Shown piece after piece: positions 1 through 14,350 of a stretch of DNA of 20,740 nucleotides. Under the pieces are notes generated by a model. That model was given only the letters and a program-made list of their open reading frames with translations, ran no database searches and was not told the origin of the DNA. Each line of letters opens with the position of its first letter. Within the stretch, counting starts at the first letter, position 1. Position numbers and translations under genes: made by a program. Source of the stretch: a virus; the IMG/VR virus record IMGVR_UViG_3300005663_000224, positions 1 through 20,740 of that record. One strand, 5' to 3'.

Positions 1-213
1 AAGAGACTCGTTAAGGAATTGGTCTCGATATTTGCCTGAAATTTTAGAGCTTAGCCAGTATCGTTCATCAAGGTATATCATGCCATCATGTTTCTTGGCG
101 ATTATACTACCTAAACTTTGAAGATACTTTATACCTGTGTCTGTGTCTATAATGATAAACTGGTCAATGGCCCTATTGCCCTTTGCGTTTGTCATATTTT
201 TTACCCATATCAT
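1..213 (-). CDS. Partial small phage protein, unknown function
   Basis: A minus-strand reading frame of 71 codons runs from ATG at 213 to the left window edge with no stop, so the C-terminus lies outside. The start is supported by a GAGAGG Shine-Dalgarno sequence seven bases upstream (220-225). The protein begins MIWVKNMTNAKGNRAIDQF. Around residues 30-65 it has a pattern of the type YLQSLGSIIA, IYLDERYW, SGKYRDQFL, which I associate with small phage proteins of unknown function; that resemblance is from memory. No catalytic motif is visible. It points away from the virion genes, like the other two minus-strand genes, and probably belongs to an early or accessory leftward group. Real-gene confidence is high, function unknown. 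Confidence 0.75.
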   Translation of the reverse strand, partial: MIWVKNMTNAKGNRAIDQFIIIDTDTGIKYLQSLGSIIAKKHDGMIYLDERYWLSSKISGKYRDQFLNESL

Positions 214-244
214 ATTATATCCTCTCAAATAATGCCGTCTTCTA

Positions 245-273
245 TATATAGTCAATATCTGCCTTATTTACAA
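245..273 (-). promoter_or_regulatory. Candidate leftward sigma70-like promoter
   Basis: On the minus strand TTGTAA (268-273) is followed after 17 bases by TATATA (245-250). The predicted transcript would start near 238, about 25 bases before the ATG at 213. Both hexamers match the consensus at only four positions each, so this is a plausible rather than a strong call. Confidence 0.35.
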
Positions 274-479
274 CCTTTTCATGAAGTTTTAACTTGACAG
301 AGAGTATCATAGCCATAATCAGGTCAATAACGCAGTAAATATTTGTTCATATGTCTGGACACACCCCCAGTATGCCAAGTTAAATCTTAAGTAAAACTTT
401 GAAAAATGTACGTAATACGTCTTGACGTGTTTTTGGGCTTTAATCAATGATGACTCGAATAATCTCGGACGGTTCTATA

Positions 480-512
480 ATTATATGTCCTTGACCGAAC
501 ATATGCATGGAC
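480..512 (+). repeat. 33-base imperfect direct repeat, copy 1
   Basis: This segment matches 921-953 at 27 of 33 positions by hand alignment, sharing the blocks ATTATATGT, CTTGACC and TATGCATGGAC. Its end coincides with one of the TGGAC motifs. An inverted fragment of the same unit, GGTCAAGAAC, occurs at 678-687. Confidence 0.7.
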
Positions 513-920
513 AGTACGTCCACACATAACGTCAAATGTCCAGACAAGTCCAGACATAATCGAGCATATTTTTTGTGTGGACATTGCTATAATTTCCTTG
601 TTATAAAGAGTTTACAAGTGTTGTGTCCACTACGTCCAGTCATATGGTATAAACTCCCCTTAGTAAAATAGAATATGGTCAAGAACCTTAATGGACAGAT
701 TCTGTGTATATGAGTAACATAGGGGAAAATGTCTGGACGTGTGGACGGATTGATATAAGTTCATTGCTCATATAGATTTAACGCGTCCACACATATTCGA
801 TGATAGCTTTTGTCTGGACATATCATGGACGTGGGCCTGATTCAGCCTAAGAACATCAGTCTCGCTGTCCACGTCCACACATTTGCACACTGATTGTCGG
901 TTTGTATCTGATTGGACGTG

Positions 921-953
921 ATTATATGTTCTTGACCTTGATTATGCATGGAC
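921..953 (+). repeat. 33-base imperfect direct repeat, copy 2
   Basis: Second copy of the unit at 480-512, 441 bases away, with the same three conserved blocks. The two copies bracket most of the GTCCA/TGGAC array. Confidence 0.7.
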
Positions 954-958
954 GTAAG

Positions 959-988
959 AATAGTCGGACGATATTCTGCCCGGCTATT
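959..988 (-). terminator. Weak hairpin downstream of the 999-1205 gene
   Basis: AATAGTCGG (959-967) and CCGGCTATT (980-988) can pair at eight of nine positions, or nine with a G-T pair, around a 12-base loop. It lies just past the stop of the leftward gene ending at 999. There is no clear T-run, so an intrinsic terminator is only possible. Confidence 0.25.
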
Positions 989-998
989 GGTGAAGTGA

Positions 999-1205
999 TT
1001 AGTCTATGCAATGTAATGCTACCGCTTCGCCTGATATGTTAATTTCATTCGGATATGGTTCATCGTTAAGGTGAACACGTTTCTTGCAGGTTTTACATTC
1101 AGACGACCACCAGTGTCGATACTTCCTATTAAACTGATTCATTTTATGCCCGCGAAATCTACATGTTTCTAATGCTTCTTTGCGTAAACGTTCTAATGTT
1201 CTCAT
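999..1205 (-). CDS. Small Cys/His putative metal-binding phage protein
   Basis: This 68-residue protein starts at ATG 1205, seven bases after a GGAG Shine-Dalgarno sequence. Residues C15, H20, C37 and C40 (CRFRGH and CKTC) are arranged like a small zinc knuckle, and the tail NEINISGEAVALHC adds C66. The combination of an RGH.M segment, a CxxC pair and a terminal GEAVAL.C is one I recognise from many small hypothetical phage proteins, but no function is established for it to my knowledge. It is the second gene of the leftward group, 48 bases after the 40-residue gene, and is preceded by the second copy of the 20-base leader repeat. Metal binding is inferred from the residues only. Confidence 0.8.
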   Translation of the reverse strand: MRTLERLRKEALETCRFRGHKMNQFNRKYRHWWSSECKTCKKRVHLNDEPYPNEINISGEAVALHCID

Positions 1206-1222
1206 ATTATAGCTCCTATTAA

Positions 1223-1242
1223 TAAGTTATCATTGACTATTT
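1223..1242 (-). promoter_or_regulatory. 20-base leader repeat, copy 2
   Basis: The sequence TAAGTTATCATTGACTATTT (plus strand) is identical to 1392-1411. It lies 17 bases before the start codon of the leftward gene at 1205, immediately upstream of its Shine-Dalgarno sequence. The core AGTTA-TCAT-TGACT is an imperfect palindrome, as expected of an operator or of a leader element that affects translation. Confidence 0.55.
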
Positions 1243-1253
1243 TATCCGCTTGA

Positions 1254-1376
1254 TTATTTTTTCTTGACTATTTTATAGCCATATTCATCCAGCTTTTGTT
1301 CGAGCATTTGATACCTATGGCTACCAATATAATCTGTTGTTGATAATGCCTTTTTGATTGCTTCTTTCTTGGTCAT
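1254..1376 (-). CDS. 40-residue basic protein, unknown function
   Basis: ATG at 1376 follows AGGGGA at a spacing of seven bases, and the frame ends with TAA at 1254-1256. The protein begins MTKKEAIKKALSTTDYIGSH and ends in a run of lysines (IVKKK). It is rich in Lys and Glu and probably mostly helical with one turn. It is the promoter-proximal gene of the leftward transcript that starts near 1411 and precedes the 68-residue gene by 48 bases. No family was recognised. A small DNA- or host-protein-binding role would fit its size and position but is a guess. Confidence 0.65.
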   Translation of the reverse strand: MTKKEAIKKALSTTDYIGSHRYQMLEQKLDEYGYKIVKKK

Positions 1377-1391
1377 TGTGCTATCCCCTAT

Positions 1392-1411
1392 TAAGTTATC
1401 ATTGACTATTT
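1392..1411 (-). promoter_or_regulatory. 20-base leader repeat, copy 1
   Basis: Identical to 1223-1242. It begins at the predicted transcription start of the leftward promoter and ends 15 bases before the ATG at 1376, just upstream of the Shine-Dalgarno sequence. A shorter version of its TTGACTATTT end also occurs at 1264-1276. Position at the start site suggests an operator; equal placement before two genes also fits a leader RNA element. Confidence 0.55.
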
Positions 1412-1417
1412 ATGTAG

Positions 1418-1446
1418 AGTATAGCATACTATCAATGACAATGCAA
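1418..1446 (-). promoter_or_regulatory. Leftward sigma70-type promoter with extended -10
   Basis: On the minus strand TTGCAT (1441-1446) is followed after exactly 17 bases by TATACT (1418-1423). The -10 is preceded by TGC, giving the extended -10 form TGnTATACT. The predicted start near 1411 is about 35 bases before the ATG at 1376. This is the best bacterial-type promoter seen in the window and should drive the leftward genes at 1376 and 1205. Confidence 0.65.
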
Positions 1447-1492
1447 GAACAAACTGAAAGAATGTACTTGAAAGCACACTCACTAACACAAA

Positions 1493-1529
1493 GTCCGATA
1501 ACCCCGTACCCGACCCTTGAATATCGGAC
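1493..1529. repeat. 8-base inverted repeat with 21-base loop
   Basis: GTCCGATA (1493-1500) and TATCGGAC (1522-1529) are perfect reverse complements. The element lies upstream of the leftward promoter and of the rightward genes, so it could be an operator shared by both directions. No T-run follows, which speaks against an intrinsic terminator. Confidence 0.55.
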
Positions 1530-1661
1530 GTTCACGCGAATGGACCCTTCTCCTGGGCAAAATCCATGCGTAAATATTTCGTTTCGAGGTTGTACTTGAC
1601 AAATATGGCCCATAACCGCAGTAATAGCAAGGATTTACAGAGATGTCCAGGCATATGTGAA

Positions 1662-1709
1662 ACTATATTACAAAAAATATATAAAAAAATAAATAATAAG
1701 TTGTCCACA
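1662..1709. other. AT-rich tract next to a DnaA-box-like site
   Basis: Bases 1661-1700 contain only three G or C in 40. They are followed by TTGTCCACA (1701-1709), one mismatch from the classical DnaA box TTATCCACA. AT-rich DNA beside such a box is typical of unwinding elements of origins, but one imperfect box is weak evidence. Confidence 0.35.
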
Positions 1710-1830
1710 GGGCAGAAACTGACCATGTATAGAGGGCAGGTAAAACGTAAGGCCCGATATGAGGGGCAACGTGGGAACGTCAACGATACGTAAGCCCACA
1801 ATAGCCCCCTCAAAGAGAAGGAGACCGAGA

Positions 1831-2028
1831 ATGAGCCATGAAGACCCATCGCCCATACAGGTTAGGGACGCAGCACACTATAAGGCTGAAGTGACATGCC
1901 TCAACTGCGGCAGTGAGACTGAGGTACACCCGCCTGCTGGAACTCTGGTATTAGAGTTTACCAAGGAACAGAAGATGGTGTGCCCGAATTGTGCATGTGT
2001 AGATGCAAGATTGGTGGTGAAGACCTGA
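1831..2028 (+). CDS. Small zinc-ribbon-like protein
   Basis: This 65-residue protein carries two Cys pairs, CLNC (C23, C26) and CPNC (C51, C54), separated by 24 residues, the layout of a zinc ribbon. The frame is open from an earlier ATG at 1759, but ATG 1831 is chosen because AAGGAG lies seven bases upstream and the earlier start would add a basic segment without a ribosome binding site. It is the first gene of the rightward series and its TGA overlaps the ATG of the next gene by one base (TGATG), suggesting translational coupling. Zinc binding is inferred; possible roles include nucleic-acid or protein contacts. No specific family was recognised. Confidence 0.75.
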   Translation: MSHEDPSPIQVRDAAHYKAEVTCLNCGSETEVHPPAGTLVLEFTKEQKMVCPNCACVDARLVVKT

Positions 2029-2462: not shown

Positions 2463-2813
2463 ATGGATAACTATTCAATGGACAACATGGGCAACAGAAT
2501 ACCAGCGGATGTGCACGCATCTGATCCTGTAGCAGGATCTGGTATTACATTGGCTACTGGTACTGCTGGTGATGATAAGACGCAAACATTGGTCGGTGGA
2601 CAGATGTACGTCATTACTCTGATAGGTACTGCTGGTACTGCGATTCTAGCCAGTTCTACTGGGGTGACATCAACAGCCGCTAACATAGAGTTTGTTTTCC
2701 CCGCTGGTTACTCCAGTGTGTTCAGGATGCCGGAAGGTCTGACCACCTTGTACTTTGAAGGTACTGAATCAAGCAAGAACGCTTACCTCCGTAAGCTGAA
2801 TAGTGATACATAG
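2463..2813 (+). CDS. Small beta-rich protein, possible virion decoration
   Basis: The 116-residue protein starts at ATG 2463 after GAGGAG. From residue 25 on it is rich in Gly, Thr, Ala and Ser with alternating hydrophobics (TLATGTAGDD, YVITLIGTAG, NIEFVFPAGYSSVFRM, TTLYFEG), as in a compact beta sandwich. There are no Cys residues and no signal peptide. The composition resembles small capsid-decoration or fibre-tip proteins, and the 14373 gene product has a similar style, but sequence homology was not established. It lies 20 bases after the small Cys-pair gene and 10 bases before the protease gene. A virion role is an inference from composition. Confidence 0.7.
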   Translation: MDNYSMDNMGNRIPADVHASDPVAGSGITLATGTAGDDKTQTLVGGQMYVITLIGTAGTAILASSTGVTSTAANIEFVFPAGYSSVFRMPEGLTTLYFEGTESSKNAYLRKLNSDT

Positions 2814-2823
2814 GAGTGGCACC

Positions 2824-3690
2824 ATGAAGAACATCCATAGTTATATATTGACAGTAGTTATTACAGTCGGCTTGGTTCTGACCTTCATAAGTTGGGGTGT
2901 TGCGGTCGTTAAATCTCCTAAGATGGTACACCAGGTTAATCTACCTGATATGATACAGGAGGTCATGCCGAGTGCCGTGCATATTATGTGTGATCAATGG
3001 CAGGGATCTGGTGTGGCCCTAACCCCGGATATTGTAGCTACTGCACGTCATGTTGTAGATGGAGTGAACTATACTGTCACATTGAATAATGGTTGCAGGC
3101 TTAAAGGTTATCAGGCTGTATCCCATAAGGATTATGATATTGGGTTTATAAAGGTAGGTTCTAGGTGTGTAGCTAAACGATCTGAGCACAGCGATGAATA
3201 TCGAGAGGACAATACCTTTTTGGTAGGGCATAAAGTAGAATTGAAACCTGCCGAGTTTGGCAGCATAGATGACTGTGTACTGGGCCAGTCTGTTTTCATT
3301 GTAGGCAGCCCTTACGGAAAGATAAACTACAACAACGTGACATTGGGAATTGTATCTGGTCTGGATAAAGACTGGGATAGCCTGTCACGCTATGGAGAAC
3401 CTTATGGCTGGAAAATTGCATTTACGTCTGATAGTGCTGCTCATCCAGGTAATAGCGGTGGGCCTGTATTCAGCATGGACGGTGTGGTGCGTGGACTCCT
3501 GGTTGGAGGTTTTAGTCCTGTACTTAACTGTAGCATGCCCTCTGACCTGTTTCTTGATGATGTTGAGCTTATTAAGATGTTATTCGCTCAAGAGAAGTAT
3601 AAGGTTGAAAAAGAAAATACAAGCGGCCCGGAAGATTGGTACGGGAACCCCATAGAGATTGAATCGCATGACTATTACATGAGTGATTGA
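2824..3690 (+). CDS. Membrane-anchored trypsin/HtrA-like serine protease
   Basis: The 288-residue protein has the trypsin-fold catalytic triad: H76 in TARHVVDG, D105 in KDYDIGFIKV and S211 in the classic GNSGGP motif (209-214). An N-terminal hydrophobic segment (about residues 8-29) follows a short basic start and would serve as an uncleaved signal anchor, placing the protease domain on the outer side of the inner membrane. No PDZ domain follows; the C-terminal 35 residues are polar. ATG 2824 is preferred over an upstream ATG at 2803 because a GGAG site lies eight bases before it. Chymotrypsin-fold proteases are known in bacteria as HtrA/DegP quality-control enzymes but are unusual beside a terminase gene. 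Substrate is unknown: host envelope proteins, phage entry or lysis factors, or virion proteins. Confidence 0.88.
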   Translation: MKNIHSYILTVVITVGLVLTFISWGVAVVKSPKMVHQVNLPDMIQEVMPSAVHIMCDQWQGSGVALTPDIVATARHVVDGVNYTVTLNNGCRLKGYQAVSHKDYDIGFIKVGSRCVAKRSEHSDEYREDNTFLVGHKVELKPAEFGSIDDCVLGQSVFIVGSPYGKINYNNVTLGIVSGLDKDWDSLSRYGEPYGWKIAFTSDSAAHPGNSGGPVFSMDGVVRGLLVGGFSPVLNCSMPSDLFLDDVELIKMLFAQEKYKVEKENTSGPEDWYGNPIEIESHDYYMSD

Positions 3691-3698
3691 AGGTCTAG

Positions 3699-4109
3699 AT
3701 GGATAAACAGAAGTCAACTCGGAAAGCAAAGGCTGAAGCTAAAAAGTTACTAACCGGTTTTATCAATGATATAGCCCTGGAAGACAGTGACATAACCAGG
3801 GTATCTGGTGAAGAAATCGGTGATGTTGAGTTTATATCTAAGGCCGAAGCACTGGCACGCTACATATGGAAAGCTGCCCAAGGCTATAGAGAAATCGTTG
3901 TAGCGGTGGATAGCAAAACCGGTGAAAGAACCGAGCGTACTGTAATACATGCTCCTGATAAGGCGTATGTAATCATGCTGTATGACCGTATGGAAGGTAA
4001 AGCAGCCAATACTGAAGCAGTTGTTGATGATAGTAAACCTACAGCAGCGGATAGAGTTTCCGATTTGGCTAAGGACAGACTGAATAGTATCGCCAAGGGA
4101 AAGAGATGA
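3699..4109 (+). CDS. Probable terminase small subunit
   Basis: The 136-residue protein is charged and helical with a basic N-terminus (MDKQKSTRKAKAEAKKLL). It has a helix of the form ISKAEALARYIWKAAQGY (46-63) and a further PDKAYVIMLYDRMEGKA segment (86-102), typical of podovirus small terminases that bind the packaging site and load the large subunit. Its stop overlaps the start of the large terminase gene (ATGA at 4106-4109), the usual arrangement. A GAAGG site precedes ATG 3699. The assignment rests mainly on position and general style, not on a signature motif. Confidence 0.7.
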   Translation: MDKQKSTRKAKAEAKKLLTGFINDIALEDSDITRVSGEEIGDVEFISKAEALARYIWKAAQGYREIVVAVDSKTGERTERTVIHAPDKAYVIMLYDRMEGKAANTEAVVDDSKPTAADRVSDLAKDRLNSIAKGKR

Positions 4110-6025
4110 CAGCCGTAATAGATAGCTTAAAACCTAGTCTATCGACCCCATTTCCGAACGTACAAGAGTTCTGGGAATGTACCAGGACCGGTCTAGTTGT
4201 ACCAAAAGAAATACTCCCCAATTTGAACTATAGAGCCAAGATTTTGCATGAGGCTGAATATGATAAGGGTATGCAAGAAGACTTGATGACTGCCTGTTCT
4301 GAGTCATTGCTGTATTGGGTAAATACATTTTGTTTCACTTACCATCAGTTTGATGTAGAAGGTGACACTGGTAAGCGTTATCAGTCTGAATCAGCACACT
4401 GTCCGTTTATATCGTGGGATGTTCAGGACCAATTATTTGAACGGTTCATATATCATCTCAATAATGCTAAAGATATACTGGTAAACAAGTCACGTGACAT
4501 GGGTGCCAGTTGGATGTGCAATATATTCATTCATTGGTTATGGCTATTCAGGCCGCAGTCGCAGCTATTAGAATTATCAAGGACTGAGTCTTATGTAGAC
4601 CAAGCGGGTAACATGAAGGCTCTATTCCAGAAACATGACTATATTAATAAATTTCTTCCTGAATGGATGCTGCCTCCGTTGTGTATGCCTAATCAGAAGT
4701 TCCGCACCAAGATGCACATGATGAACGACCTTAACGGTAGCTGTATAGATGGTGAATCTACTACTGAGCATGCTGCATCCGGTGACAGAAGGTTGGTAGT
4801 ATTGCTTGATGAGTTTGCCAAGGTTAAGAACGGTAAACTGATGCGGAGTGCTACACGTGATGCTGCCCTGATGCGTATTATAAACTCTACTGTAGCTGGT
4901 CCCGGCACCGAGTATAGTAAGTGGAAGAACGACGGCACCATAGTAGTATTCCCGTTAATGTGGTGGGATCATCCTGATAAGGGTACGAATCGTTATGTAG
5001 AACAGAATAAGGTGACACAGGAATGGAAGATAAGATCGCCTTGGTACAACAATGAAGAGAAAGAACGGTCTCCGAATGAGATGGCCAGGGAGATTGATGC
5101 CAATGATCTTGAGTCCGGGTCAACATTTTTTACCAACACCAATATAGACAAGCATATAGCTATATTCGGGAAAACACCAAGGTCACAATGGAACATAGAC
5201 TTCATTCGCGGTGTACCTAGTGACTCTATATCTACCATATTGAAGAAGAAACAGATAGCCAAGGTATCAGTTAAGCGGTCTTTGCACGGTAAACTCAAGA
5301 TATGGGTTAATCTCATAAATGGTAGACTAGATCAACACTATGACTACATAGTGGGCATAGACCTTAGCAAAGGGCAGGGTGCATCCAACTCTGTGTTGTC
5401 TATAAAGAACAGGCAGACTGGCGAGAAAGTAGGCGAATGGGCTGATGCTAATACACCTCCATACGAGATGGCCAGAATAGGTATGGCCGTAGCTCTGTGG
5501 ATAGGGGGACGCAGGAGACTACCACTTTTGAAGTGGGAGATGAACGGTGATCCCGGTTATGACTTTGGCAAGAATGTAGTCAAGAAATTTCATTATCCAT
5601 ATTATCATCGTGACGTTAAGCCCGGCAATATAAGAGATAAGAGCACCAAGAAATATGGCTGGCACAACAGTCGTGATGCCAAGGCTATACTGCTTAGGGA
5701 CTATGATAGGGCATTGGCCCACGGTGGCTATATCAATCATTCCATAATATCTTTGCAAGAAGCTAAGCAGTATATCTATTACGATTCAGGTGGAGTCGGA
5801 CCAGCTTGCCTTATAGAAGAGAGTCAGTCAGCTAAGAAGACACATGGTGACAGGGCTATGGCTGATGCTCTTACTATTGAAGATAAGTTTCGCAAGTTCA
5901 AGGATACCACCAAGGCTGCTGCTAAGCGTAATCCGCGTACAGCAATAGGTCGTAGACAGTTATTGAAAGATAAACGGGTTAAGAGAACTAGAGGTTGGAA
6001 AACATCGTTTGACTTTAGAGGATAG
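4106..6025 (+). CDS. terL: Terminase large subunit
   Basis: This 639-residue protein is the packaging motor and headful or cos nuclease. The ATPase part shows a phage-type Walker A, KSRDMGAS (128-135), lacking the canonical GxxxxGK, and a Walker B, RLVVLLDEF (229-237) with the catalytic Glu. The C-terminal RNase H-like nuclease shows acidic residues in YIVGIDLS (D419), LLKWEMNGD (E478) and HGDRAMADAL (D582, D587). The length is normal for large terminases, perhaps slightly long. It overlaps the small-terminase candidate by four bases and is followed two bases later by the portal gene, the standard packaging cassette. It acts at the portal vertex of the prohead. Confidence 0.93.
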   Translation: MTAVIDSLKPSLSTPFPNVQEFWECTRTGLVVPKEILPNLNYRAKILHEAEYDKGMQEDLMTACSESLLYWVNTFCFTYHQFDVEGDTGKRYQSESAHCPFISWDVQDQLFERFIYHLNNAKDILVNKSRDMGASWMCNIFIHWLWLFRPQSQLLELSRTESYVDQAGNMKALFQKHDYINKFLPEWMLPPLCMPNQKFRTKMHMMNDLNGSCIDGESTTEHAASGDRRLVVLLDEFAKVKNGKLMRSATRDAALMRIINSTVAGPGTEYSKWKNDGTIVVFPLMWWDHPDKGTNRYVEQNKVTQEWKIRSPWYNNEEKERSPNEMAREIDANDLESGSTFFTNTNIDKHIAIFGKTPRSQWNIDFIRGVPSDSISTILKKKQIAKVSVKRSLHGKLKIWVNLINGRLDQHYDYIVGIDLSKGQGASNSVLSIKNRQTGEKVGEWADANTPPYEMARIGMAVALWIGGRRRLPLLKWEMNGDPGYDFGKNVVKKFHYPYYHRDVKPGNIRDKSTKKYGWHNSRDAKAILLRDYDRALAHGGYINHSIISLQEAKQYIYYDSGGVGPACLIEESQSAKKTHGDRAMADALTIEDKFRKFKDTTKAAAKRNPRTAIGRRQLLKDKRVKRTRGWKTSFDFRG

Positions 6026-6027
6026 AC

Positions 6028-7815
6028 ATGGCAGACATTTTAATGGCCAGAAAATTAAGCTTGGCGGTTAAAGATGGTTTTGACCGCAATAGACGTTTCG
6101 CCCGTGCACGTGCTATGTTCATACGCGAGTATGTGGGCAAGTACTACGCACAGGAGTTCGGGCTTACGGGTGAGGAACCCATCAATCTTATATTCAATAC
6201 ACTTAGGGCTATGGTGCCTAATCTGGTTATGCAGTCAGGCGTGAATAAAGTAGGTACTGAGATTACAGCACACCGTGACTATGCATCCCTCTTGGGGTTA
6301 GGACTTAACAAGTTGGATAAGTTAATTGAGTTCAAGGACACCATGCGTGGTGGCATAGTGGATGCCTTTTTCCTTATGGCTATATTCAAGACTGGGTTAG
6401 CCACCAGTGGCAAACTTCTAAATTTCGGTGATGTGTTAATTGATCAAGGCCAGATATACTCAGATGTAGTAGACTTTGATGACTTCGTGTTCGACCCGGT
6501 ATGTAAGGACTACCGCAACGCTGCGTTTATAGGCGATAGGAATAGAGTGCCAAGGCAGTTACTCCTTGATGATAATGAGTTCAATCATGATCTTGTGATG
6601 CAACTTCCGCGATCTATATCTACTGATGCCAAGAAGAGAGTTGAGAGCATGTCGCGTAGGGGTATGAGTGACTCTGAGATGTTCGAGTTGCAGGATTTTG
6701 TAGACGTGGTAGAACTCTATGTGCCTGATGCTAATGCCCTACTTACTATACCTGATCCGCACCAGATCATATTAAATGACTGGCTGGCAGCACGTGACTA
6801 TTACGGTCCCAAGTCTGGACCTTATACCATTATGGCATTAACACAACCTGTACCAGGTAATCCATATCCGATAGCACCGGTAGGTATATTCTACGATCTG
6901 CACAAGATGGCCAATAGAATGATGGTCAAGCTTATGAATCAAGCTGACCGTCAGAAGGACATTGCCATAGCTGATCCGGCTGGTGCAGATGAGGCTGAAG
7001 ATCTTAGAACCGCGTCAGACGGTGATATCGTGATGGGTAATCCTGATACTGTAAAGGTCGTATCTTTCGGTGGTCAAAACCAAAAGAGCGAAGTTATGCT
7101 TGAACGTTTACAGGTGTGGGCCAACTATATGTCCGGTAATCCTGATCAGGTAGCTGGTCTCGCATCTGAAGCCGATAGTGCGACCCAGGCCAGTATCCTC
7201 CAAGCTAACTCTACTGTGACTATAGAAGATGCTAGAGGTATGGTATATGATGCCTCTGCTAATATAGCTAAGAAGAAAGCTTGGTTCATGCATACTGATC
7301 CATTTATAGATGTACCATTATCTAAGCGAAAACCAGGTGGTGAATACGTACAACTTGTGTTAACACCAGAACAAAGACGCGGTGATTTTTTGGAGTATAC
7401 ATTCAACATTAAAGCTCGGTCTATGTCGCGGTTAGATCCTGCTGTAAGGACCAAGCGTATCATAGAGTTCGCTACTAATGTTATGCCTAGTGTTGTGAAC
7501 TCAGCTATGGTAAACTCACAGATGGGCATACCTACTAATGTGCCAGGAATATTAACTGATATTGCTGATGAATTGGGTATATTGGAAGATGTGCAGGATT
7601 GGTTTGAAGACCCCCAGTTTATACAGCGTATGCAGTTAGTGCAACAACTAGGGCCGCAACCAGCAGGTAAGGCTCAGCAAGCCGGACCAGCGGCGGGTAC
7701 ACGCGGCAACGGGAACCAGACTAAGATACAGTCAGGCTTTCAGGAACGTAAACAAATTGAACAACTGGGTGCCGATGAAAGTCAAGGTGCCAGAACCTCA
7801 GAACCAGGAGTATAA
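6028..7815 (+). CDS. Portal protein
   Basis: The 595-residue protein starts at ATG 6028, two bases after the terminase stop, with GAGG upstream. It has the alternating helical and beta character of portals, an N-terminal NLIFNTLRAMVPNLV segment (53-67), and a SEADSATQASILQ stretch near residue 380 of the kind seen in the helical part of many portals. The C-terminal 45 residues are rich in Gln, Gly, Ala and Pro and are probably disordered. It would form the dodecameric ring through which DNA is packaged and to which the adaptor binds. Position directly after the large terminase and before the scaffold supports the call strongly. Confidence 0.88.
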   Translation: MADILMARKLSLAVKDGFDRNRRFARARAMFIREYVGKYYAQEFGLTGEEPINLIFNTLRAMVPNLVMQSGVNKVGTEITAHRDYASLLGLGLNKLDKLIEFKDTMRGGIVDAFFLMAIFKTGLATSGKLLNFGDVLIDQGQIYSDVVDFDDFVFDPVCKDYRNAAFIGDRNRVPRQLLLDDNEFNHDLVMQLPRSISTDAKKRVESMSRRGMSDSEMFELQDFVDVVELYVPDANALLTIPDPHQIILNDWLAARDYYGPKSGPYTIMALTQPVPGNPYPIAPVGIFYDLHKMANRMMVKLMNQADRQKDIAIADPAGADEAEDLRTASDGDIVMGNPDTVKVVSFGGQNQKSEVMLERLQVWANYMSGNPDQVAGLASEADSATQASILQANSTVTIEDARGMVYDASANIAKKKAWFMHTDPFIDVPLSKRKPGGEYVQLVLTPEQRRGDFLEYTFNIKARSMSRLDPAVRTKRIIEFATNVMPSVVNSAMVNSQMGIPTNVPGILTDIADELGILEDVQDWFEDPQFIQRMQLVQQLGPQPAGKAQQAGPAAGTRGNGNQTKIQSGFQERKQIEQLGADESQGARTSEPGV

Positions 7816-7817
7816 TT

Positions 7818-8051
7818 ATGTCACCATGTATATCAGAAGTTAATCCTAAAAAGATAGGTGGTTACGATAGGTACGATGTTGAGGATGCTGTTCGCGCTAT
7901 GCGAAAGTCGGCAGAGATTGAAGCTGATCCCAAGTTTCGTAAAGTGGTAGCCAAAGAAATGAACAAAGAAGCTGGCCAACTTGTAGAAAAGGCCAGTTTG
8001 TTAACCAAGACATCTGCCAAGCTAAAGGCAGTATTCGGAGGTAAGAAATAA
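7818..8051 (+). CDS. Small charged helical protein after portal, unknown
   Basis: This 77-residue protein starts at ATG 7818 after GGAG (seven-base spacing). It begins MSPCISEVNPKKIGGYDRYD and then forms an amphipathic Lys/Glu-rich helix (DVEDAVRAMRKSAEIEADPKF and following), ending LKAVFGGKK. Its stop overlaps the next start (TAATG at 8048-8053), so the two are probably translated together. Small genes between portal and scaffold are common in environmental podoviruses; the role is unknown, possibly head assembly. Confidence 0.75.
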   Translation: MSPCISEVNPKKIGGYDRYDVEDAVRAMRKSAEIEADPKFRKVVAKEMNKEAGQLVEKASLLTKTSAKLKAVFGGKK

Positions 8052-11095: not shown

Positions 11096-12226
11096 ATGAG
11101 TAAAATTCAAAATATGGGCGTAGGTGCCTATGATGTGTACTGCGAGACCAAGCGGGTTTTTTATCGCCCTGTAACTGCTTCCACGGAAGTTAAGGTCGGA
11201 CAGCCGGTTTGTTATAACAGTGATTCTGTAACAGACCAAAAGGAACGAACCGCCCATCCTAATACTGGACACCTTAACGGTGGCGGTCTTACCGCTTATG
11301 CTGAGGGCGTACAGTCCTTTACTGGTAGATTGTTTATTGTAGAGGAACCTCTTACAGCTAACCTTCACGCGTGGGCAGGTATTGTAAAGTCACTCGGCCC
11401 GAAACTTGGTACTGATGGTGACATGATTGAGATCTTTATCCCAACAGAAGGTGCTATAGTTCCGGTTATTAGCGATCAGAATTGTATACTGGACAGAACC
11501 ATTATTGGTATCAGAAATGGTGAAGCCGCGACTTCTTATCCTGGTCGTCCGATTGGTGTAGCTATGGAAACCAAAGACCGCTCAAGCACCGATGGCTTGG
11601 TCTGGATGAGGTTCAAGAGCTTCGATTATGGTGCCATAAAGGGTGGTGGTGATTCAGCTTCTAATTCGCTGATTGTCGACGATGAGATTACATCCAATAA
11701 TGTTGTGTTGGATCAGAGAAACTATCGTTTTGACGGTACCGGTCGTGCAAGAGCATTATACTATGTCGGCGAAATTGCAGGACTTGGTAATGCAATGTGG
11801 GGTATGTGGAAGTTTAGAACATACGTTAATGCTGCTTTAGTAAGTAGCGTTGTGCATGTTGTTACTGCTAATTTGCACTTCAAGGACGCTGCAACAATAG
11901 CCGTTACTTCAGGCCATTGGAACTCTGCTTTCTATGGTACAGTAGAAACAGAAGTAACTTCAACCGCACCCACTTTGTCAGGTGGTAGTGTAGCTGGCAT
12001 CTCACTTGAATATTACGTTGATGAGTCAGTTGCTGCCCCGGCTAATGCATACGCCATTTATGTACATGCTGGTACATATAATTGGGATGGCTTGCTGGCT
12101 ATTAGAAATGCCGGTGACTGTGGTGACGTTGCTACAGTTGAAGCTGGTGATGCTGGTGGTGGCTCTATTCCTATCTACATTGCAGGTACTACTTATTACC
12201 TGCATTATTGGAACGCTGCTTCGTAA
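11096..12226 (+). CDS. Virion protein, probable capsid decoration or minor head protein
   Basis: The 376-residue protein starts at ATG 11096 after AGGAG. It appears to have two parts. Residues 1-175 form a beta-rich domain (VGQPVCYNSD, MIEIFIPTEGAIVPVI, YPGRPIGVAMETKD), in the style of capsid-associated decoration proteins. After a Gly/Ser-rich linker (GAIKGGGDSASNS, 179-191), residues 192-376 form a second beta domain rich in Ala, Thr and Val, ending IAGTTYYLHYWNAAS. There are no catalytic motifs and no signal peptide. Position directly after the coat gene, with strong ribosome binding site and structured flanks, fits an abundant surface protein; the second domain could be displayed outward. 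Function is inferred from position and composition. Confidence 0.7.
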   Translation: MSKIQNMGVGAYDVYCETKRVFYRPVTASTEVKVGQPVCYNSDSVTDQKERTAHPNTGHLNGGGLTAYAEGVQSFTGRLFIVEEPLTANLHAWAGIVKSLGPKLGTDGDMIEIFIPTEGAIVPVISDQNCILDRTIIGIRNGEAATSYPGRPIGVAMETKDRSSTDGLVWMRFKSFDYGAIKGGGDSASNSLIVDDEITSNNVVLDQRNYRFDGTGRARALYYVGEIAGLGNAMWGMWKFRTYVNAALVSSVVHVVTANLHFKDAATIAVTSGHWNSAFYGTVETEVTSTAPTLSGGSVAGISLEYYVDESVAAPANAYAIYVHAGTYNWDGLLAIRNAGDCGDVATVEAGDAGGGSIPIYIAGTTYYLHYWNAAS

Positions 12227-12232
12227 TTAACT

Positions 12233-12294
12233 GGCCAGTAACCGAGCACTCCTTTAACGTGGGGTGCTCGGCCTGGCTTCTATTAACCACGTTA
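12233..12294 (+). terminator. Strong hairpin with possible pseudoknot after the 11096 gene
   Basis: CCGAGCACTCC (12242-12252) pairs with GGGGTGCTCGG (12261-12271), 11 pairs with one T-G. An outer stem GGCCAG (12233-12238) with CTGGCT (12273-12278) extends it. The run after it is TTCTATT, a poor T-tract. In addition TAACGTGG (12255-12262), mostly in the loop, is the exact complement of CCACGTTA (12287-12294), just before the GGAG of the next gene, so an H-type pseudoknot or an alternative structure is possible. A terminator or translation-control element is likely. Confidence 0.65.
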
Positions 12295-12306
12295 TAGGAG
12301 AAAGTT

Positions 12307-12678
12307 ATGAAAAAGTTTAGATTAGATTTAAGCGAGTATGATGTGACAGTTACAGTGCCTGTCACTAAAGAAGATGGCTCTCATGTGTTCGAGGACCAGA
12401 CTAATACATACCCATTACGCGAGAATATCAGCACATGGCTTCGCAGTGTGGGTGTTTTTAAGTCAGCCGAAGATATTGCTGAAGCTGTCAGCGTGGCCAA
12501 ACAGATTCGTGATTGCACGGCAGATTCAATAGAATTAGACGGGCGTGAAACAGATGTGCTGAAGAAAGCTGTAAATCGTTTAGTCGAACTGACCGCAGAG
12601 GGTAAGGCTAATCTTGGCGGTGAAATTCACGAAGAGGCCATCATTCGTGTCGTGAAGATGCAGGAGCATAAACTATGA
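12307..12678 (+). CDS. Small acidic protein, unknown function, after head genes
   Basis: The 123-residue protein starts at ATG 12307 after GGAG (12297-12300). It begins with a beta-like segment KKFRLDLSEYDVTVTVPVTK and then becomes helical (ISTWLRSVGVF, EDIAEAVSVAKQIRDC, DVLKKAVNRLVELTAEGK). The layout, a short beta start followed by helices with an ELDG turn, resembles small uncharacterised proteins encoded between capsid and connector genes in other phages, but no function is established to my knowledge. It overlaps the next gene by four bases (ATGA). Assembly factor is a guess. Confidence 0.7.
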   Translation: MKKFRLDLSEYDVTVTVPVTKEDGSHVFEDQTNTYPLRENISTWLRSVGVFKSAEDIAEAVSVAKQIRDCTADSIELDGRETDVLKKAVNRLVELTAEGKANLGGEIHEEAIIRVVKMQEHKL

Positions 12679-13052
12679 ACGTAGACCAAGCTGCTATTAA
12701 TATGAGTAATGTACTGCAAGACAGTCGCATTGAAACACCTAAAGGCCCACTGACCTCACGCGAGCATCAACAGTTAGCTGCTGATTTGCACCTGCTGATA
12801 TCACGGGCTAAAGAGGTGGATGAAGCTACAGAGGAAGCCAAAAGGTTAGTTATAAAAGTTGCTAATCTAGAGGGTGAACTAATAGCGTTGAGAGAAGACC
12901 TCAAGCAGGCTAGAATAAAAGTGCATGAAGTGATTAAGAATGCAGGTGCCGAGGTACCGGGAGAGTTTCTCAGCGAAGAGGAAGAGAAAGAGCTCCTGAA
13001 AGAAATCAAAGGAGCACCTGATCCCGGACCGATTGAAGCACCAAAGGAGTAA
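12675..13052 (+). CDS. Small coiled-coil protein, unknown function
   Basis: This 125-residue protein is dominated by charged heptad-like helices, strongest over residues 44-88 (RAKEVDEATEEAKRL, VANLEGELIALREDLKQARI), followed by an acidic segment (SEEEEKELLKEIKG) and a Pro-rich tail (APDPGPIEAPKE). It starts within the stop of the 12307 gene (ATGA overlap), so the pair is probably made in fixed proportion and may act together. No enzyme motif is seen. An assembly chaperone or small structural role would fit the position. Confidence 0.7.
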   Translation: MNVDQAAINMSNVLQDSRIETPKGPLTSREHQQLAADLHLLISRAKEVDEATEEAKRLVIKVANLEGELIALREDLKQARIKVHEVIKNAGAEVPGEFLSEEEEKELLKEIKGAPDPGPIEAPKE

Positions 13053-13054
13053 AC

Positions 13055-14350
13055 ATGGCAAGTGAACCTTCAAATGCTAAAACATTCTATGACCTGATAA
13101 TCCATGTAGCTGAGAAGTTACATATAGTAGATTACAGATCTAACGGGACATTGTTAATACCCACTGACCAGTATGGTTTCGAGTTATGTAAGCGGGTAGT
13201 CAATGGTGGTATAGAGATGTTCATAACTGACTGCCCTGAGAAGGGATGGCGTTGGATGCGTAGGTTGGCCCCGGTGACATTCGCCGTAACATATACCGGC
13301 ACAGCTACAAGTGGTGGTGCTACAACCTTGGTAGACAGTAGCATAGCCGATACATATGCTGATGACTTCTTCAACACATATAAGATATTTATAGAAGTTG
13401 GTACTGGTAAAGGTGAATCAGCCACTGTCACTGATTATACAGGTTCGTCTGGTACGTTCACGTTCTCGGCATTGTCTGGTGGTTCTACTCCTGATACTAC
13501 AACCAAGTATAGCATAGCCAGGTCGCTTAATGCTATAGACGGTGACGGTTCAAGATATTTGCTCCCGGCTAGTTTTGGTGGTACTGTAGATGGTAAGATC
13601 GAGTATGTAAAAGACACCAATCGCGGTAGGTATATAGAATGGGTAGATGAGGCTTTCATGCGGGCACGTAGGTCTATAACGCTTAATTCAGGCTACCCAT
13701 TATGGTCGGCTATACTGCCCAATGAGCCTACAAGTGAGAATCTATCGGCATCGCGTAGGTGGGAGATCATGTTCGATCCCAGACCTATAGCCGCTGATAC
13801 AGTACAGTTTCCATTCACATTGTATTTTGATAAGATGCTGATGGAAACTGGTACTGCTACTGCTGGTGCTGCAACTAGTCTTACGGACTCAAACAGGTGG
13901 GAAGTTGATGATTATTTTAATGACTGGATCTTGACTGTACGTGATGGACCTGGGCGAGGTGAGACAGCTACTATAACTGATTATACTGGGTCTACGGGTA
14001 AGTTTGATTTTACAGCATTGTCTGGTGGTAGTACACCCACTACCGCCAGTGTGTACACAGTAGAGCCAGCCGCTAATCTACATCCTGCCGGACATCAGTT
14101 TGACAATAGTATTAAATCTGCATGCTTAGCATATGCAGAATTGGAAGTTCAAGACGAGCATATAGATAATCAATGGACTGAATATTATCACAAAAAGGAT
14201 CTACCTAATGCTCATAAATTAGACAAGCGTTCAGCACCGAGAACACTCGGTAAGATGCTGGACAGAACCGTAAGCTTGCATCGTAGCATAGGTATGCCCC
14301 AACCGTATCGGAGCTATAACAATGTCACTACGGAGCATGATCAAGCATAA
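13055..14350 (+). CDS. Probable head-tail adaptor with a duplicated beta domain
   Basis: The 431-residue protein starts two bases after the previous stop, with AAGGAG upstream. A helical N-terminus (FELCKRVVNGGIEMFITDCP, GWRWMRR) and a helical C-terminus (FDNSIKSACLAYAELEVQDE, NQWTEYYHKKDL) resemble connectors that dock on the portal. Between them lie two copies of a beta module, residues 82-154 and 266-335. Each reads TATxGxATxLxDS, then DDxFN, GxGxGExATxTDYTGS, then ALSGGSTP. The copies alternate with unrelated beta segments, so this looks like domain duplication rather than a tandem array. It would link the portal to the tail nozzle. Connector identity is inferred from position and the WRWMRR-type N-terminus. 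Confidence 0.68.
   Translation: MASEPSNAKTFYDLIIHVAEKLHIVDYRSNGTLLIPTDQYGFELCKRVVNGGIEMFITDCPEKGWRWMRRLAPVTFAVTYTGTATSGGATTLVDSSIADTYADDFFNTYKIFIEVGTGKGESATVTDYTGSSGTFTFSALSGGSTPDTTTKYSIARSLNAIDGDGSRYLLPASFGGTVDGKIEYVKDTNRGRYIEWVDEAFMRARRSITLNSGYPLWSAILPNEPTSENLSASRRWEIMFDPRPIAADTVQFPFTLYFDKMLMETGTATAGAATSLTDSNRWEVDDYFNDWILTVRDGPGRGETATITDYTGSTGKFDFTALSGGSTPTTASVYTVEPAANLHPAGHQFDNSIKSACLAYAELEVQDEHIDNQWTEYYHKKDLPNAHKLDKRSAPRTLGKMLDRTVSLHRSIGMPQPYRSYNNVTTEHDQA
13298..13516 (+). repeat. Internal domain repeat, copy 1 (adaptor residues 82-154)
   Basis: Encodes the first copy of the GExATxTDYTGSxGxFxFxALSGGSTP module. Protein identity with the second copy is high in the second half of the module; at DNA level the stretch encoding ALSGGSTP is also similar (CATTGTCTGGTGG shared). 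Confidence 0.75.
13850..14059 (+). repeat. Internal domain repeat, copy 2 (adaptor residues 266-335)
   Basis: Second copy of the module at 13298-13516, with DNGPGxGE replaced by DGPGRGETATITDYTGSTG. The distance between copies is about 550 bases. Confidence 0.75.

Follow-up and report, generated by a model that had tools for sequence, protein, structure and literature searches.

Sites in a gene-free gap

What does a dense cluster of one short word do in a gene-free gap of a phage genome? The window, which here means the whole stretch of 20,740 bases that was analysed, is the record of a 20.7 kb virus fragment. It contains 47 copies of GTCCA/TGGAC, and 18 of the 47 lie within positions 356 to 953. 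About 1.1 copies per 600 bases are expected, and the highest number in any 598-base stretch of 200 dinucleotide-preserving shuffles was 7. In the same 200 shuffles, the clustering z score reached 9.3 at most, against 14.3 in the window, and no other 5-mer equalled it. The original prediction, made from the letters of the window, had described 18 copies where about one is expected, and it had proposed a count over the whole genome; the count over the window bears out both the array and its concentration in this gap.

Alignment of the sites gave a longer unit, YGTCCANNCATA, which fits them better. With up to one mismatch, it has 17 matches in the window, compared with 3.0 expected in all. Of the 17, 12 fall in positions 350-954 and a single one at 1644-1655, the other four being in the rest of the window. 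The two extended variants that had been noticed do recur, with three copies of CGTCCACACAT and five of GTCCAGACA. Some copies approach a dyad (ATGTC-CA-GACAT).

The sites are found on both strands. A full-word site without mismatches, TGTCCAGACATA (350-361, minus strand), is the left outlier of the array. It is followed by TGTCCATGCATA (502-513, minus), CGTCCACACATA (517-528, plus), TGTCCAGACAAG (537-548, plus), which stands in tandem at 10 bases with AGTCCAGACATA (547-558, plus), and TGTCCACACAAA (572-583, minus). Two plus-strand GTCCA sites 9 bases apart, with cores at 625 and 634, occupy 624-644, the second being CGTCCAGTCATA (633-644). A weak site on the minus strand has the GTCCA core only (692-696), and a minus-strand pair 8 bases apart (728-746) consists of CGTCCAGACATT (728-739) and a second core at 742-746. 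Another CGTCCACACATA (784-795, plus) is followed by TGTCCAGACAAA (809-820, minus), by a weak site 11 bases from the latter (826-830, minus), and by two plus-strand sites 6 bases apart (867-883), of which the second is CGTCCACACATT (872-883). The right end is formed by CGTCCAATCAGA (907-918, minus) and CGTCCATGCATA (943-954, minus). An outlying perfect site, TGTCCAGGCATA (1644-1655, plus), lies near the divergent transcription boundary.

Longer repeats also carry the sites. The 33-base imperfect repeat reported earlier (480-512 and 921-953, both on the plus strand) is 82% identical between its copies, and the sites at 502-513 and 943-954 overlap its left and right copies, respectively. A second imperfect pair, of 37 bases (548-584 and 785-821), is 81% identical, and its right copy is made up of the sites at 784-795 and 809-820. 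The A+T-richest 60 bases or so of the array (565-625, 72% A+T) are a candidate melting segment, weaker than those of the relatives described below.

The array region has no ORF of at least 60 amino acids, and the gap has no match to Rfam families. The gap measures 785 bases, as was originally stated, if the left gene begins at an ATG near 213, and 743 bases if it begins at the TTG at 255. Small leftward genes lie on both sides of the array, and rightward terminase, portal, and capsid genes come after them. The terL gene for the large terminase subunit (4106-6025, plus) served as the anchor for finding relatives and for synteny. A TerS-like gene (3699-4109) lies just upstream of it, nearly 3 kb from the array. 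Just upstream of these two, a serine-protease-like gene (2803-3690, plus) has a PHROG protease match (E 5e-13), and similar-looking proteins are encoded at its place in L004, L006, L025, and L046.

A DnaA-box origin was considered and rejected: the box TTATNCACA has no exact match, one-mismatch matches are below chance, and none cluster in the array.

Arrays of relatives at the same place

Is the array conserved? A terminase scan found 55 relatives, every one a metagenomic viral contig. Isolated phage genomes gave no DNA match, with only distant matches to the terminase and helicase proteins, and genome contigs contained no integrated relatives. The left flanking gene as a query found no relatives, and a second helicase alignment added almost no new near ones. 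A pattern search of viral contigs for inverted pairs of the word returned 49 stretches.

The GTCCA word is not enriched in the relatives. An unbiased k-mer scan located clusters of sites in both orientations in about 12 related uncultured phages, at the same place, approximately 3-6 kb upstream of terL, with differing words. These words are TGTCTAGGTA in G002; TGTCTGGGTA in G004, G005, and G008; TGTCTATGTA in G014; GGTCTATA in G019; TTAGGTGGAT in G015; TATAGGAC in G012; TGTCATACCA in G028; TTAGTTAT in G030; TGTCCCG in G031; GTGTGCTAT in G032; TTTGTGGCAT in L007; and TAGTACAG in L042. For the most specific words, every exact copy in a genome lies at the single array locus: 9 of 9 for GTCTAGGTA (50.3 kb), 8 of 8 for GTCTGGGTA (36.6 kb), and 9 of 9 for ATCCACCTA (37.9 kb). 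The original prediction had named a lack of conservation in close relatives as an argument against the array. The word does change between relatives, but the array persists in place and layout.

In some relatives, such as G009, G021, G033, and G041, the k-mer scan found no array. G042 has a 15-bp tandem direct repeat (CGGACCTACAGG plus 3) in one orientation throughout, at 27025-27235 in joined-record coordinates, about 6 kb upstream of terL, which is the usual array position. More distant relatives contain short repeats at very high density, such as GCAGCA, ACGCCGAG, CTTCTGCC, and CGAACCTC, in some of these genomes near an HTH gene. Such loci are found (joined-record coordinates) at 30.57 kb in G027, 22.6-22.8 kb in G035, 40.48 kb in G038, 40.64 kb in G039, and 0.4 kb in G040.

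Five close relatives could be aligned across the array. They share nine site positions, at which the orientation is kept and the letters are genome-specific. The central letters switch jointly across the aligned sites, as in GTCTGGGTA, GTCTAGGTA, and GTCTATGTA; at alignment position 192, the five genomes have GTCTGGGTA, GTCTGGATA, GTCTGGGTA, GTCTAGGTA, and GTCTATGTA. Some positions, such as 269, hold GTCTATATA in most genomes. Thus, the letter change between relatives is not total. Of the signs that the sites of an array share a reader, this joint change of letters in fixed places is the strongest.

The layout is also shared. In 12 arrays with different words, the sites of one half tend to be oriented as a mirror image of those in the other (p ~0.005), and the longest stretch free of sites and the 60 bases richest in A+T are in most cases found towards the middle. 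Most arrays consist of two site sets about an A+T-rich centre, a layout that is weaker and less clear in the window's own array. Over 15 arrays, which are partly related so that the counts are not independent, tandem sites are spaced at about 10, 20, 30, 50, and 62 bases, which is close to whole numbers of helical turns (57 distances, vector strength 0.41 at 10.5), and convergent pairs have centre distances of 18 and 28. Could the arrays be repeats without any function, expanded neutrally? Slippage and conversion can generate short repeats. However, the two orientations, the helical spacing, and the homologous positions with joint letter change in several genomes make this the least probable of the readings considered.

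In 9 of 10 genomes, the cumulative GC skew has its minimum at a distance of 0.1-1 kb from the array; in the tenth, the distance is 2.1 kb. The switch of gene direction near the array confounds the skew. The window has its minimum at 1553, nearer to that switch.

The candidate reader of the sites

Which protein would read the sites? The conserved leftward genes of relatives with long enough records include one for a primase-helicase of 760 amino acids, along with genes for a Sak4-like protein, an exonuclease, and, as judged by eye, an A-family-DNA-polymerase-like protein. The 20.7 kb record of the window encodes no primase-helicase, in keeping with the earlier expectation that the recognising protein is probably encoded outside the window. 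Thus, the pairing of array and helicase was drawn from the relatives, in which the two lie approximately 15-19 kb apart. In G014 (L065), two DNA methyltransferases (MT-A70 and C5-cytosine; 11534-13165) adjoin the primase-helicase gene. The same genome has adjacent paralogues (6955-7371 and 7405-7836) whose middle parts are nearly identical and whose ends are unrelated.

The primase-helicase matches a primase PHROG, DUF5906, RFX_DNA_binding, and Pox_D5. Its profile has its best PDB match in the SaPI5 primase-helicase (7ola, E 1.5e-21) and a weak one in RFX5 (0.0015). When the C-terminal half was modelled (pLDDT 86), the model ended with the element order of a winged helix, and its closest fold was again the SaPI5 primase-helicase (TM 0.68). 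The RFX-like winged helix, of about 90 amino acids, is 89-94% identical between same-word genomes and 60-69% in most different-word pairs, a comparison of low power because a word is common to one genome group only. Outside the winged helix, the protein is 86-89% identical between same-word genomes and 72-83% between different-word genomes. G014 is an exception: its word is unlike that of the G004, G005, and G008 group, yet its winged helix is 80-82% identical to theirs. Thus, the domain tracks the word imperfectly. Specific binding of the iterons by the initiator is a prediction, on which this covariation bears only indirectly.

The TerS-like protein is the one other conserved protein that matches the winged helix in following the word. 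Its contrast ratio between same-word and different-word pairs is 0.27, the strongest of all, compared with 0.31 for the winged helix. Terminase subunits bind repeated sites. An array that is a packaging site (pac or cos-type), recognised by a small terminase subunit whose gene directly precedes terL, would agree with both points. On the other hand, a directional signal would not be expected to have mirrored site sets with a centre rich in A+T, and in the window almost 3 kb separate the array from the TerS-like gene. The protein has no DNA-binding domain recognisable in Pfam or PHROGs, and the TerS label was given from the gene position and a resemblance seen by eye. The packaging reading is disfavoured by the layout and is regarded as improbable.

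It is somewhat less improbable, though still unlikely, that the array is regulatory, with a phage transcription factor on many operators controlling the leftward early genes. The array sits within the leftward transcription unit, and promoter-like matches in window positions 1-2000 exceed those in shuffles (15 vs 6.9). Several kb leftward of the array lies the gene for a conserved sigma-r4-like protein with two HTH motifs. However, this protein is 56% identical between two same-word genomes and 58% between genomes with different words; since its identity does not follow the word, it was rejected as the reader. HTH_3 gave only sub-cut-off matches in 16 genomes, and neither tyrosine integrases nor serine recombinases/resolvases were found in them. 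Furthermore, the array is a single locus, with more sites than a promoter needs. Dispersed-operator immunity of the L5 stoperator type was also rejected: the exact words lie at one locus, an integrase is absent, and repressor matches are below the cut-off.

A centromere-like partition site of a phage-plasmid would also have many short sites in a non-coding block and a word that diverges fast. ParB_N, however, had no match in the 16 genomes, while the control matched in 10 of 14, and no lysogeny genes were found. The partition reading is therefore very improbable.

Of the three options originally offered, namely an iteron origin, a multi-site operator, and a partition site, the iteron origin is favoured. 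The immunity operator and the partition site lack support in the 16 genomes, in which integrase, recombinase, and ParB were not found and HTH_3 stayed below the cut-off, and the most specific words are not scattered. I estimate at about 0.68 the probability that the array is a phage replication origin of the PICI/P4 type, with iterons predicted to be bound by the phage's own primase-helicase. In such an origin, the words of about 12 bp would be the iterons, placed in both orientations about a central A+T-rich segment, where the DNA would melt. They would be bound by the phage-encoded D5/SF3-type primase-helicase, which is like SaPI5 Rep, through its C-terminal winged-helix domain. The primase-helicase would assemble on the site sets, open the A+T-rich centre, and start replication, which would probably be bidirectional from the array. 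The binding, the melting, and the direction are inferred, as is the presence of the same primase-helicase in the phage of the window. Iteron word and reading domain may co-evolve, and each lineage would therefore have its own code.

Do lineages rewrite the code of their origin? It is a tentative and rather doubtful idea that the iterons and the reading domain switch together and so create origin types that are incompatible. Conflict may drive the switching, with satellites or rival phages copying the origin or nucleases targeting it. If the origin reading is right, the same layout would occur in an autonomous phage family with about 12 origin words and a candidate reader domain to match them. 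This would provide a natural data set in which an initiator and about 10-18 scattered sites change specificity jointly. It also predicts origin-based incompatibility between related phages and offers a route to origin prediction in uncultured phages.

Comparison with known systems

The alpha protein of satellite phage P4 is a primase-helicase with a C-terminal iteron-binding domain. The P4 origin and crr are two separate elements with type I iterons, which are repeated short sites in both orientations. The phages studied here resemble P4 in having a primase-helicase with a C-terminal domain and short repeated sites in both orientations. They differ in their words and in the members of the protein family, and one array per genome was found, unlike the two elements of P4.

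Iterons are read by the C-terminal domain both in SaPI Rep and in the related Cch2 (PMC7581432). The Cch2 of SCCmec resembles the candidate reader: it is a D5-family helicase, and it binds short direct repeats, the AAGTG iterons, with its C-terminal domain (PMC7581432). Unlike the phage array, there are only three of these iterons, directly downstream of the gene, in an integrative element.

In the PLE satellites of Vibrio cholerae, the initiator's DNA-binding domain and the origin vary together, and conflict may select for the diversification (PMC8263062). The likeness is the covariation of initiator domain and origin. The PLE RepA, however, is an unrelated protein, a RepA_N initiator, and its origin has three semi-palindromic iterons of about 30 bp.

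Among the closest known systems are the PICIs. In their origins, an A+T-rich region invariably lies between two sets of iterons, the whole being placed directly 3′ of rep (PMC6092414). This arrangement is said to be absent from all other known bacterial replicons (PMC6092414). The phage arrays are like the PICI/SaPI origins with Rep (PDB 7OLA) in their short iterons in two sets, the non-coding block, the A+T-rich segment, the element-specific iterons, and the D5-type primase-helicase with a C-terminal DNA-binding domain, which the phages encode in the relatives. In contrast, the phage array is about 15-19 kb from the helicase gene instead of directly 3′ of it, and it is strongly mixed in orientation with up to about 18 sites. 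It belongs to an autonomous, apparently lytic phage lineage, which has terminase, portal, and capsid genes and, in 16 genomes, no integrase or resolvase. Because of this location, the number and orientation of the sites, and the autonomy of the phages without integrase, the array is treated as a variant within this kind of origin rather than as a PICI origin proper.
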